From Granulicella sp. (GTDB taxonomy: Bacteria; Acidobacteriota; Terriglobia; Terriglobales; Acidobacteriaceae): 42,664 bases of DNA. The DNA lies in contig PKWU01000008.1 of assembly GCA_003132145.1 (NCBI GenBank), positions 1 to 42,664 on the forward strand, written 5' to 3'. A program made the translations under genes and the position numbers. The notes beneath the pieces were generated by a model. It saw only the letters and a program-made list of their open reading frames with translations, made no database searches and was not told the DNA's origin. Shown one piece after another: positions 15,062 through 31,382 of this stretch; positions within the stretch are counted from its first letter, which is position 1, and each line of letters begins with the position of its first letter.

Positions 15062-15094
15062 AAATACGGAGATTCTGGCTGCGCCAGAATGACG
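15062..15094 (+). repeat. GATTCT...GAATGAC palindromic repeat, site 1
   Basis: Contains ATTCTGGC-TGC-GCCAGAAT (8-bp perfect stem, 15072-15090) followed by GACG. The 33 bases are identical to 31128-31160. A degenerate extra unit (CTGGAATGACGAAC) follows at about 15102-15116. A TTG/GTT-rich low-complexity run lies just upstream (15005-15035). Related sites are at 21953, 23853 and 31128. Confidence 0.85.
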
Positions 15095-15792: not shown

Positions 15793-16725
15793 ATGAAGCT
15801 GGTTTTTTGTGGGACGCCGGAGTTCGCGGTGGGTACGCTGGAGGCGGTGATCCGTGCGGGGCACGAGGTGGCGCTGGCGGTGACACAGCCGGACCGCGCG
15901 GCTGGGCGCGGGATGGAGTTGCAGGCCCCGCCGGTGAAGAGGGCTGCGGCGGCGCATGGGATTGCGGTGGTGCAGCCGGAGAAGATCCGGAACAATGAGG
16001 AGTTTAGCGAGCGGCTGGAAGGGGTGCGGCCGGATGCGATTGTGGTGGTGGCGTATGGGCGGATGATTCCGCAGTGGATGCTGGAGTTGCCACGGCTGGG
16101 GTGTATCAATCTGCATGGGTCGTTGCTGCCGAAGTACCGCGGGGCCGCGCCGATCCAGTGGGCCGTGGCCAACGGCGAGAGGGTGACGGGCGTGACGACG
16201 ATGCGGCTCGACGAAGGGCTGGACACGGGCCCGATGCTGCTGGCGCGGGAGGTGGCGATTGGGGCCCAGGAGACGGCGGTCGATGTGTTTCGGTCGCTGG
16301 CGGTGGTGGGCGCGGAGTTGATGGTGGAGACGCTGGCGGGGCTCGCGGAGGGGACGTTGGTGGGGCGGAAGCAGGACGAGGCGCAAGCTACGCTGGCTCC
16401 GATCCTGACACGCGAGGATGGGGCGATTGATTTTTCTCGGACGGCGCGACAGATCTACGACCGCTGGCGTGGATTTCAGCCCTGGCCGGGAGCGCATACG
16501 CGGCTGCGCGGGAAGAAGCTGATTGTGCATCGCATGCATGTGGGCGCGGAGAGCGGGATTGAGGCTGGTGTGTTGCGGGTTGTGGGGGACGAGATGGTGG
16601 CGGGATGCGGCGAGCGCTGCTCGGTGGTCTTCGACGAGGTGCAGCTGGAAGGCAAGCGGCGGATGAGCGCGGCGGAGTTTCTGCACGGGTTTCAGGTTAA
16701 GAGCGGCGAGAGGTTGGGGGATTGA
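15793..16725 (+). CDS. fmt: Methionyl-tRNA formyltransferase
   Basis: Formylates initiator Met-tRNA using 10-formyl-THF. The 310-aa product starts MKLVFCGTPEFAV. It has the catalytic loop with N106/H108 (INLHGSLLPKYRGAAPIQWA) and downstream GVTTMRLDEGLDTGPML, then a C-terminal tRNA-binding domain (about 205-310) with the linker WRGFQPWPGAHT. Length is normal for Fmt. Its TGA stop overlaps the TTG start of rsmB, so the two are probably translationally coupled. Confidence 0.97.
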   Translation: MKLVFCGTPEFAVGTLEAVIRAGHEVALAVTQPDRAAGRGMELQAPPVKRAAAAHGIAVVQPEKIRNNEEFSERLEGVRPDAIVVVAYGRMIPQWMLELPRLGCINLHGSLLPKYRGAAPIQWAVANGERVTGVTTMRLDEGLDTGPMLLAREVAIGAQETAVDVFRSLAVVGAELMVETLAGLAEGTLVGRKQDEAQATLAPILTREDGAIDFSRTARQIYDRWRGFQPWPGAHTRLRGKKLIVHRMHVGAESGIEAGVLRVVGDEMVAGCGERCSVVFDEVQLEGKRRMSAAEFLHGFQVKSGERLGD

Positions 16726-18161
16726 GCGATGCGCGGCGCGACGGTGCAGTAAAGCGTGGAGTGCGGGCGCGGCCACGGTCGGCTGGGCCGACGGCATCGG
16801 CGGCGGAGGCGATTGCGAAGATTGCTCCTGCACGGGCTGTGGCGTTCGAGATCCTGACACTGGTGGGCGAGGGCAAGGGACATAGCGATGAACTGCTGCA
16901 CTCGGCGCGGACCGATGAGCTGACGGCGGAGGACCGCAACCTGACGACGGCGCTGGTGATGGGCGTGCTGCGCTGGCAGATTGCGCTGGACGCGCGTGTG
17001 GCGAAGCTGCTGGCGCGGCCCGAGCAGAGGCTGGCGGAGCCGGTGGCGCTGGCGCTGCGCATGGGTGCGTTTCAACTGCTGCAGATGGACCGGATTCCGG
17101 CGCACGCGGTGCTGAACGAGAGCGTGGAGATGTGTCGCGCGGCGGGGCAGCCCCATGCGGCGGGGATGGTGAATGCGGTGCTGCGCAAGCTGGCGGCTAA
17201 ACCCATATCTCAAAATCGAGATGTGGGGCACCCGCTGCGGAGCGTTCCATTGTTCGAGTCGGCGGCGGCGTTTGCGGAGCGGTTGGGACATCCTCTGTGG
17301 CTGGTGGAGCGATGGGCGGCGGCGTATGGGCGCGATGCCGCGCTGGCGATCTGCGAGTATGGACAGAGAGAGCCGCTGGCAGGATCACTCTTTGTTGAGG
17401 CGAAGGGCGGTGGCGCGGCTTCCGCGGAAGAGGCACCGCAGATGGACGATGGATCGCGGTTGGTGGCGGAGATTACGGCGGCTGCGATGCCGGTGGTTGC
17501 AGGACGCGTGGCGCGAGTGTGGGACTGCTGCGCCGCACCGGGAGGAAAGACGCTGATGTTGGCGATGCGGCTGAACCCACATCTCAAGAATGAGATCTCG
17601 GGCTCCCACGACGCGGAGATTCTGGCGACGGACGTGAGCGCGAAGCGGATGGCACTGATGACAGCGCGTCTGCGGCGTTATGCGTATGCCGAGCGCGTGC
17701 GGTGCGCTGTGGCGGATGCTTCGGTCGTTGCGGGCGATGCGGAGGAGAAGTTCGATCTGATTTTGTGCGATGTGCCGTGCAGCGGGACGGGGACGCTGGC
17801 GCGCAATCCGGAGATACGTCATCGTTTGCGCGTGGAGGAGTTGGCGCGGCAATCTGCGCGGCAGCGGGCGATCCTGACGGGAGCACTGGGGCGGCTGGCA
17901 CCAGGCGGGCGACTGGTGTACTCCACCTGCTCGCTGGAACCGGAGGAGAATGAGCTGGTGGTGGAGACAGTGGCGAATGAGGCTGGAGTGCGGCGGATTC
18001 CGGTGGAGACGCTGATGGCAAAGCTGGCTGAGACAGGGGTGCTTAAGCAGGAGGTTGCCGCTGGGCTGATTGGTTCGGCGGTGAGGGATGGCACGCTGCG
18101 CACTCTGCCCGGTGTGTGCGGGTGCGACGGATTTTTTGCGGTGGTTCTGGAGCGGGGATAA
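16722..18161 (+). CDS. rsmB: 16S rRNA m5C967 methyltransferase with two in-frame repeat insertions
   Basis: A SAM-dependent rRNA cytosine-5 methyltransferase of 479 aa. An N-terminal NusB-like RNA-binding domain covers about 30-160. The Rossmann methyltransferase domain has WDCCAAPGGKTLML, the Cys-containing DVPCSGTGT (C353) and the nucleophile motif STCSLEPEEN (C403). The TTG at 16722 overlaps the fmt stop; GTG 16761 is an alternative. Two copies of a 32-nt palindromic repeat lie inside the coding region: near residues 161-171, in the linker between domains, and near 285-296, just after the SAM loop and before ILATDVS. Neither breaks the frame. The inserted residues differ because the copies are read in different frames. 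Confidence 0.93.
   Translation: MSDARRDGAVKRGVRARPRSAGPTASAAEAIAKIAPARAVAFEILTLVGEGKGHSDELLHSARTDELTAEDRNLTTALVMGVLRWQIALDARVAKLLARPEQRLAEPVALALRMGAFQLLQMDRIPAHAVLNESVEMCRAAGQPHAAGMVNAVLRKLAAKPISQNRDVGHPLRSVPLFESAAAFAERLGHPLWLVERWAAAYGRDAALAICEYGQREPLAGSLFVEAKGGGAASAEEAPQMDDGSRLVAEITAAAMPVVAGRVARVWDCCAAPGGKTLMLAMRLNPHLKNEISGSHDAEILATDVSAKRMALMTARLRRYAYAERVRCAVADASVVAGDAEEKFDLILCDVPCSGTGTLARNPEIRHRLRVEELARQSARQRAILTGALGRLAPGGRLVYSTCSLEPEENELVVETVANEAGVRRIPVETLMAKLAETGVLKQEVAAGLIGSAVRDGTLRTLPGVCGCDGFFAVVLERG
17202..17233 (+). repeat. CCCACATCTC palindromic repeat, copy 1 (inside rsmB)
   Basis: A 32-nt element beginning CCCATATCTC and ending GATGTGGGGCACCC. Arms CATATCTC and GAGATGTGGG pair with one mismatch. 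It matches the intergenic copy at 26468 at 29 of 32 positions. Read in rsmB as PISQNRDVGHP. Confidence 0.88.
17576..17607 (+). repeat. CCCACATCTC palindromic repeat, copy 2 (inside rsmB)
   Basis: A more diverged copy beginning CCCACATCTCAAGAAT, then GAGATCTCGGGCTCCC. It keeps the CCCACATCTC and GAGAT arms and the GGGC-x-CCC end. It is read in a different frame from copy 1, giving PHLKNEISGSH. The weaker 3' arm suggests an older insertion. Confidence 0.7.
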
Positions 18162-26467: not shown

Positions 26468-26499
26468 CCCACATCTCAGAATAGAGATGTGGGGCACCC
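26468..26499 (+). repeat. CCCACATCTC palindromic repeat, copy 3 (intergenic)
   Basis: A 32-nt element with perfect arms CCCACATCTC and GAGATGTGGG around AGAATA, then GCACCC. It lies between the convergent stops of truB and the esterase, where it could also act as a bidirectional terminator. It is the best preserved palindrome of the three copies. Confidence 0.85.
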
Positions 26500-31077: not shown

Positions 31078-31382
31078 CGAGCGCCGTTCCGGTGCGGCTT
31101 GCGATGTGTTGCGATGCGAGACAAGGCAAATACGGAGATTCTGGCTGCGCCAGAATGACGGCTTTTGCGGGCTGCGCCAGAATGACGGCGTCGCAGTTGA
31201 TTCGCGGTGACAATTCTGCAAAGATAGCCTTAACCCGGCTGAACTTATTCTGTTAGCACATTGTTGGCACTCGCCAAACGCGATCGCTCTCTTACCGGCG
31301 GAAGCATCGGGCCGGGCCAGCCGGGGTGGTTGCAATCCATTGCCCGAGTTGGTTTTGCGCAGGAACCGGAAGGCAGGGGCAT
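31078..31382. other. Intergenic stretch between ybbP and the sigma-54 activator
   Basis: About 305 bases holding the GATTCT repeat (31128-31190) and then the presumed promoter of the activator. No gene is seen. A TGGCAC at 31265 resembles half of a sigma-54 site but lacks a GC at the right distance. Confidence 0.5.
31128..31190 (+). repeat. GATTCT...GAATGAC palindromic repeat, site 4
   Basis: The first 33 bases are identical to 15062-15094 (hairpin ATTCTGGC/GCCAGAAT). A second partial unit, GCTGCGCCAGAATGACGGCG, starts at 31171. Located just after the ybbP stop. Confidence 0.85.

Follow-up and report, generated by a model that had tools for sequence, protein, structure and literature searches.

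GTAG and CGTC REPs, intragenic REPs of several genera and the Rickettsia palindromic elements have been described together, along with tyrosine transposases of Acidobacteria that are bordered by inverted repeats (PMC3733652). The HUH classes and the GTAG/GTGG rule have been set out as well (PMC6006769). The spread of REPs is nevertheless unsettled: TnpA-REP cuts REPs in vitro, with a described role of the GTAG tag (PMC8266576), yet in the DNA between genes, filled sites are difficult to match with empty ones. Coding insertions, unlike intergenic DNA, can be aligned across species, so genes can yield the junctions, the unit length and the turnover of such elements. Intragenic REPs are already known from other bacteria (PMC3733652), while a description of coding REPs in Acidobacteria was not found among the literature matches listed, in main texts taken without supplements.

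Here, a stretch of 42,664 nucleotides from Granulicella sp. (hereafter the window) was analyzed, which lies in contig 76 of a genome of 3.17 Mb in 89 contigs that is 96% complete and has near relatives named, for example, Granulicella, Edaphobacter or Acidobacteriaceae. An initial annotation had proposed that an intergenic palindromic repeat entered the rsmB gene twice, in two reading frames, without breaking it. The features concerned are the following:

16722..18161, + strand: rsmB, 16S rRNA (cytosine-967-C5) methyltransferase, 479 aa from TTG, start codon uncertain
17202..17233, + strand: REP copy 1 in rsmB, read PISQNRDVGHP (residues 161-171), tag end GGGTGCCCC on the - strand
17576..17607, + strand: REP copy 2 in rsmB, decayed, in the other frame, read NPHLKNEISGSH (residues 285-296)
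26468..26499, + strand: intergenic REP copy, palindrome intact, loop AGAATA

Copy 1 and the intergenic copy are identical at 29 of 32 bases, and copy 2, which had been called a diverged relative, differs from the consensus at three of its 26 arm positions; sequences and count were as the initial annotation gave them. When the whole genome was searched for the element, 30 copies were obtained (at most three mismatches at 26 positions), of which 17 differ from the consensus by no more than one mismatch, while the reversed pattern gave none; BLAST returned 34 matches to the repeat. Matches of the grade of copy 2 are expected about 1e-4 times per genome and 5e-8 times in rsmB at equal base frequencies, and these tiny numbers together with the empty reversed control rule out chance similarity as the origin of the copies. 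Folding of the DNA hairpins resulted in z-scores of -2.76 for copy 1, -1.85 for the decayed copy 2 and -4.09 for the intergenic copy. Within the window, GGTGCCCCA occurs in copy 1 and in the intergenic copy only. The window also holds a 33-nt repeat in two identical copies (15062-15094 and 31128-31160) with the inner palindrome TTCTGGCTGCGCCAGAA, apparently a separate repeat family.

The rsmB product matches the Pfam families NusB and Methyltr_RsmB-F, the RsmB models rank best in NCBIfam with scores below their cut-offs, and in the PDB the SUN protein (1sqf/1sqg) is matched. The frame 16722-18161 is open across both copies, which are read at different codon positions, as had been claimed, and the proposed placement of the two inserts was also borne out. 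Site 1 lies in the domain linker, between the NusB match (residues 36-158) and a weak, below-cut-off ferredoxin-like match (190-218), and site 2 lies in the methyltransferase domain downstream of the SAM-binding motif APGGKT. The catalytic residues C353 and C403, said to be kept, are invariant in 57 aligned sequences including that of the window, and judged from its sequence the rsmB gene carrying both inserts looks functional. The predicted protein model was poor (mean pLDDT 66.7, below 50 at residues 117-177 and 291-295); low values near the inserts are compatible with flexible inserts, though much of the N-terminal half is also low.

Subsequently, RsmB proteins of relatives were aligned. 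Among 46 distinct sequences including that of the window (16 of 62 loci were removed as duplicates), most carry an AAAQKPGxRIFES-like stretch at site 1 and RLxxAEIL at site 2, where the window's protein instead reads AAKPISQNRDVGHPLRSVPLFES and RLNPHLKNEISGSHDAEIL, respectively. Each of the two rsmB segments is an insertion that is specific to the lineage and leaves the gene in frame; both derive from the same palindromic repeat, which is translated in a different frame at each site. An origin as ancestral residues was rejected, as the segments are absent from most relatives. Of 60 genomes from the genus, four have a filled site 1 (the window's genome, L015 of G017, L136 of G063 and L137 of G064) and three a filled site 2 (the window's genome, L252 of G074 and L010 of G021), with a text pattern that gave no reading in nine of the 60 at site 1 and in three of the 60 at site 2. 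At site 2, the palindrome of G074 is nested and duplicated, and G021 has a longer loop that is decayed beyond certainty.

A wider set comprised 160 RsmB sequences, namely 108 database proteins (from a search with 8000 sequences scored, of which the best 120 of 2063 hits were used) and genome loci for the rest, 17 of 177 having been dropped as duplicates and both L009 and P0002, almost one protein, having been kept. Here the element was seen singly, in tandem (KPTSNKRDESKPTSQNRDVGHP), in triplicate, nested with PSTGSGQV or TLTPASKLAGDPE, and decayed, besides empty sites. When recognizable copies only were counted, site 1 was filled in 42 and empty in 107 sequences (11 left out), with at least 18 changes of state on a quick tree built without the insert columns, and site 2 was filled in 25 and empty in 118 (17 left out), with at least nine changes. 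A looser rule, by which any longer site 2 loop counts, gave 48 and 42 filled sequences and 19 and 14 changes at sites 1 and 2, with five of 160 unclassed at site 1. Genome loci alone require at least three changes at site 1 (4 filled, 45 empty, 3 left out) and at least two at site 2 (3 filled, 49 empty). The high counts depend on proteins from metagenomes that may be chimeras, and such counts do not separate gain from loss.

Further palindromes were observed within the inserts. In L252 (site 2 of G074) and in L043, a 39-nt palindromic unit is nested in the REP as a tandem pair (TLTPASKLAGDPE twice), and a like palindrome is nested within another tagged hairpin of the window's genome (G000:C22:73883). 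At site 1 of the L015 rsmB, a different hairpin repeat (CCCTTCGACGGGCTCAGGGCAGG, PSTGSGQV) is nested in the REP with the frame intact.

At least nine of the 30 genome copies lie inside recognized genes whose relatives or structural homologues are without the stretch, and others lie between genes. The genes are rsmB and ispE (two copies each), hemE and those for PEP carboxylase, farnesyl diphosphate synthase, an acyl-CoA ligase and an S9 peptidase. The two ispE copies have an identical 32-nt core; the second is common to G074 and G075, and the first site in G074 holds two element-like stretches in tandem. The hemE copy runs in the opposite orientation, and no REP was found at this site among the aligned relatives, of which L208 and L210 have other extra residues. 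Residues ~276-350 of the same protein (L124:842-2449) form an unrelated in-frame stretch of ~75 residues made of other repeats (CHPERS.., GSPASLLAGVE), which is absent from most aligned relatives, a few having other repeat-like sequence there. In comparison with solved structures, PEP carboxylase runs from residue 457 to 523 where the chain spans 743 to 747, and around the copies the S9 peptidase runs from 486 to 529 against 596 to 603 and the acyl-CoA ligase from 140 to 210 against 107 to 153. Farnesyl diphosphate synthase also has an extra stretch relative to the solved structure, with an insert at the same place in a second genome (L200). Besides the full rsmB, 19 of the 35 own spanning frames were run through Pfam, and copies in three PMT_2-type frames (L106, L128, L130) and before a GltX domain (L123) were kept outside the in-gene count.

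In a genus sample with one copy per genome (29 loci from 33 other genomes with a match, Pfam run on 20 of 32 listed frames), the copy falls inside a Pfam match, or in the gap between matches of the same open frame, at 11 of the 29 loci. Named from their domains, these encode an OpuAC protein, RsmB (twice), PheT, ArgS, GltX, a MiaB/RimO-like radical SAM protein, MnmE, a polyprenyl synthase, a histidine phosphatase and a beta-lactamase-family/NamZ fusion; L190 (DUF308) and L202 (N_methyl) were not included. About 57 extra residues are present at the copy in GltX. The MnmE case (L198) is weak, with ~6 extra residues compared to T. maritima MnmE, and the histidine phosphatase (L189) had no PDB match at the cut-off used. 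In L197:2-2899, a single open frame holds a beta-lactamase-family domain and NamZ domains with the REP in between. As conserved genes are easier to recognize, no enrichment is claimed. The exact CAYRTCTC-type pattern was found in 41 of 74 sampled genomes of the window's Acidobacteria family (rows tallied by hand) and in one of 225 others of the class. The suggestion that the repeats are actively spreading stands in so far as presence and absence vary among close relatives and 17 of the 30 copies are within one mismatch of the consensus, while transposition itself was not seen.

To the length of the insert, rsmB site 2 gave the cleanest answer, with 14 residues in seven of seven filled proteins against three in three empty ones (empty lengths were measurable in three of five proteins tried), a gain of 11 codons or 33 nt. 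An empty site 1 is 12 residues long in four proteins, against 23 (+11) in the filled P0003 and P0008 and 18, 22, 28 or 33 (+6, 10, 16 or 21) in the other seven of nine filled proteins. Counted by eye, the window has 22 residues at site 1 (+10) and L047 has 26 (+14), ispE site A of the window's genome gained 11 codons relative to G021 and 12 relative to the nearer G075, and the hemE insert amounts to 12 codons relative to G074. The gain is thus steady at rsmB site 2 only and depends on the comparison elsewhere, and 33 nt is therefore regarded as a leaning. AA precedes 19 of the 30 copies and G follows 24 of the 30.

With three of the four common loops, the unit is open in five of six frames, and the loop AGAATA shuts one more. 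Four frames are used in recognized genes, corresponding to PTSQNRDVGHP, NPHLKNEMWGTH, THISEARCGAP (MnmE only) and GAPHLDSEMW. A further open frame, the hydrophobic RVPHISILRCG, was found in L190 alone, inside a stop-to-stop frame that has its DUF308 match at another place; the gene may start downstream of the copy, which leaves L190 as a possible exception. Selection against buried or sticky loops would explain the near absence of this frame and is a candidate reason for it.

To which class the repeat belongs was then examined. The element is a 10-bp hairpin of ~32-35 nt with the 5' foot GGGTGC. Its general form is GGGTGCCCCA-stem-loop-stem-TGGG, with several stem variants that have foot and end in common; among the matches listed, stems vary while tag and end are constant. 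For GGGTGCCCCA-N14-40-TGGG, 174 matches were obtained in the genome, some of which are two readings of one hairpin, and none in the reversed control. Transposases were surveyed at 51 loci, 14 of which, plain IS200-like ones included, were without a readable HUH motif; two of these 14 (L149 and L301) held tagged hairpins. Of 21 RAYT-like genes with an MPEHxH or MPNHxH motif, 16 had a tagged hairpin no more than 250 bp away from the open frame, 11 of them on both sides, and the remaining five had none inside this distance, whereas only one of 16 MPDHxH genes had such a neighbor (p 3e-5). As L283 and L290 had been fetched owing to a known nearby copy, the association was also counted without both and is then 14 of 19. 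Tagged hairpins reached 0.345 per kb at these transposase loci (43 in 124,572 bases) and 0.054 per kb at 99 control loci (21 in 391,382 bases).

Hairpins of the CATATCTC/CACATCTC type flank the RAYTs L167, L283 and L290 on both sides (genomes G072, G001 and G077) and L165 on one side (G065), and they equal the rsmB element save a base or two in arms and loop. L294 (G079) has the CACGTCTC variant, as in hemE, on one side. Each of the ten transposases examined (three belong to the MPDH type) scored above the cut-off of the NCBIfam model REP_Tyr_transpos, including L165, L167, L283, L290 and L294 as well as L039 and L040 of the window's genome. In this 96% complete genome, no RAYT with the stem of the rsmB element was found: L039 is accompanied by a CCTTCGC-stem REP and L040 by no tagged hairpin, and the own RAYT at C16 sits between two tagged hairpins. 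The own copies may therefore be remnants, or a RAYT that goes with another stem may act on them, or the RAYT gene may lie in the missing 4%. The element is a short multi-copy palindrome with a constant tag beside a variable stem, and RAYT genes are flanked by the same hairpins in other species and by a cousin stem only in the own genome, all of which agrees with RAYT-associated REPs in the broad sense. Its foot GGGTGC, with neither GTAG nor GTGG, places it outside the GTAG-REP superfamily, and RAYT-associated REP with a non-GTAG tag is the most fitting name.

We consider it likely that an Acidobacteriaceae RAYT-associated REP, copied by a RAYT, enters genes, survives in tolerant loops and afterwards decays or recombines. 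A present or past RAYT, as an HUH single-strand transposase, would copy the hairpin to new places through single-stranded DNA. Insertions into tolerant linkers and loops would be those that persist under selection, and they might later decay, receive further palindromes, duplicate in tandem or pass from strain to strain by homologous recombination. With a unit that is open in five of six frames and adds 33 nt at the cleanest site, a gene can take up a copy and stay in frame. The inserted peptides probably have no function of their own, and in this way small mobile DNA would add length to enzymes of translation and core metabolism. More speculatively, and rather doubtful as a whole, the element could be a gene-compatible REP, a unit of ~33 nt open in five frames that a RAYT clade specific for GGGTGC moves in single-stranded form, with protein loops as normal landing sites and in-gene hairpins as targets for further palindromes. 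If true, REP transposition would have left a readable record in rsmB, ispE and hemE, in the form of filled, nested and empty alleles.

For site 1 of rsmB, a different history comes close to an even chance without reaching it: the site was filled once long ago, and the present pattern reflects exchange of filled and empty alleles among strains and species by homologous recombination rather than repeated insertion. Distant filled alleles have a common junction with GCTAAA ahead of the copy and are without QKPG, which is consistent with one insertion passed on by recombination; filled alleles are alike in their KPTSQNRDVGHP junction and in having lost QKPGTRI. Very near proteins are in different states (P0013 versus P0032, and P0041 beside P0029/P0040), and in G063 and G064 the rsmB copy is the sole CACATCTC form among the matches listed, five others being CATATCTC. 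Over the 30 nt before site 1, the window is closest to L047 (28/30) among 11 rows compared. However, third codon positions agree no better with filled than with empty neighbors, neither over 40 codons to the left (30/40 with L047, 26/40 with L015) nor over 40 codons to the right (24/40 and 28/40). A search for DNA transferred between L009 and L047/L015, which are filled lineages, brought out no tract other than those 30 nt, and ispE, hemE and other genes have copies of their own, which argues against a single filling of site 1.

It is improbable that transposition played no part and that hypervariable loops acquired their REP-like sequence through slippage or through gene conversion with intergenic copies as donors. 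The ispE and hemE loops vary in length and content in many relatives, the 39-nt unit is exactly duplicated in tandem in G074, and the gains are uneven, as such a process would have it; but arms and tag end were gained as one, with 33 nt in all seven filled proteins at site 2, and gene conversion would need homology at the empty site. Still less credible is selection of the inserted peptides for a function, such as regulation of RsmB: inserts are kept in several lineages, yet they vary and decay, and the peptides that the same DNA yields in unrelated proteins (PTSQNRDVGHP, NPHLKNEMWGTH, GAPHLDSEMW, THISEARCGAP) bear no relation to one another. An assembly error in a metagenome-assembled genome can practically be dismissed, since the site 1 insert is also present in a 1.3-Mb contig of the named strain Edaphobacter lichenicola M8UP22 (L047) and in G064, although the window's relatives and many RsmB proteins are metagenomic and chimeras may inflate the state changes.

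A RAYT-copied REP that survives in tolerant loops, the reading we prefer, resembles the GTAG-tagged REP/RAYT systems (REPtrons) in its short hairpin, constant foot, many copies, adjoining RAYT and several stem families per genome. It differs from them by the foot GGGTGC instead of GTAG/GTGG, by at least nine of 30 copies in recognized genes and by the 33-nt gain at the cleanest site. The TIRYTs of Acidobacteria are likewise tyrosine transposases with flanking inverted repeats, some of which share GGGGWSAS (PMC3733652). Our tag complement GGGGCACC misfits this motif; judged by description, the TIRYTs and the transposases considered here may be the same proteins. Coding insertions are unmentioned for Acidobacteria in sections 15 and 16 of PMC3733652.

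The Rickettsia palindromic elements, to which the initial annotation had likened the repeat, are also in-frame palindromic inserts in conserved genes, at times two per gene. By description, they are set apart by another host and another foot; RPE-4 and RPE-6 belong to the CGTC class, whose tag the rsmB element does not have, and are without a link to a transposase (PMC3733652). The rsmB element is RAYT-associated and not one of the Rickettsia elements. Nor is Rickettsia the only precedent, as REPs that sit in genes without shifting the frame have been described in Opitutus, Thioalkalivibrio, Xanthomonas and others (PMC3733652). Those of Opitutus terrae, Thioalkalivibrio and Xanthomonas likewise lie in genes, repair- and RNA-related ones included, some twice per gene or at about one site in two species (PMC3733652). 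The REPs of O. terrae are of the GTAG class (PMC3733652), whereas here a non-GTAG element was followed through presence and absence, nesting and tandem states over 160 RsmB sequences.
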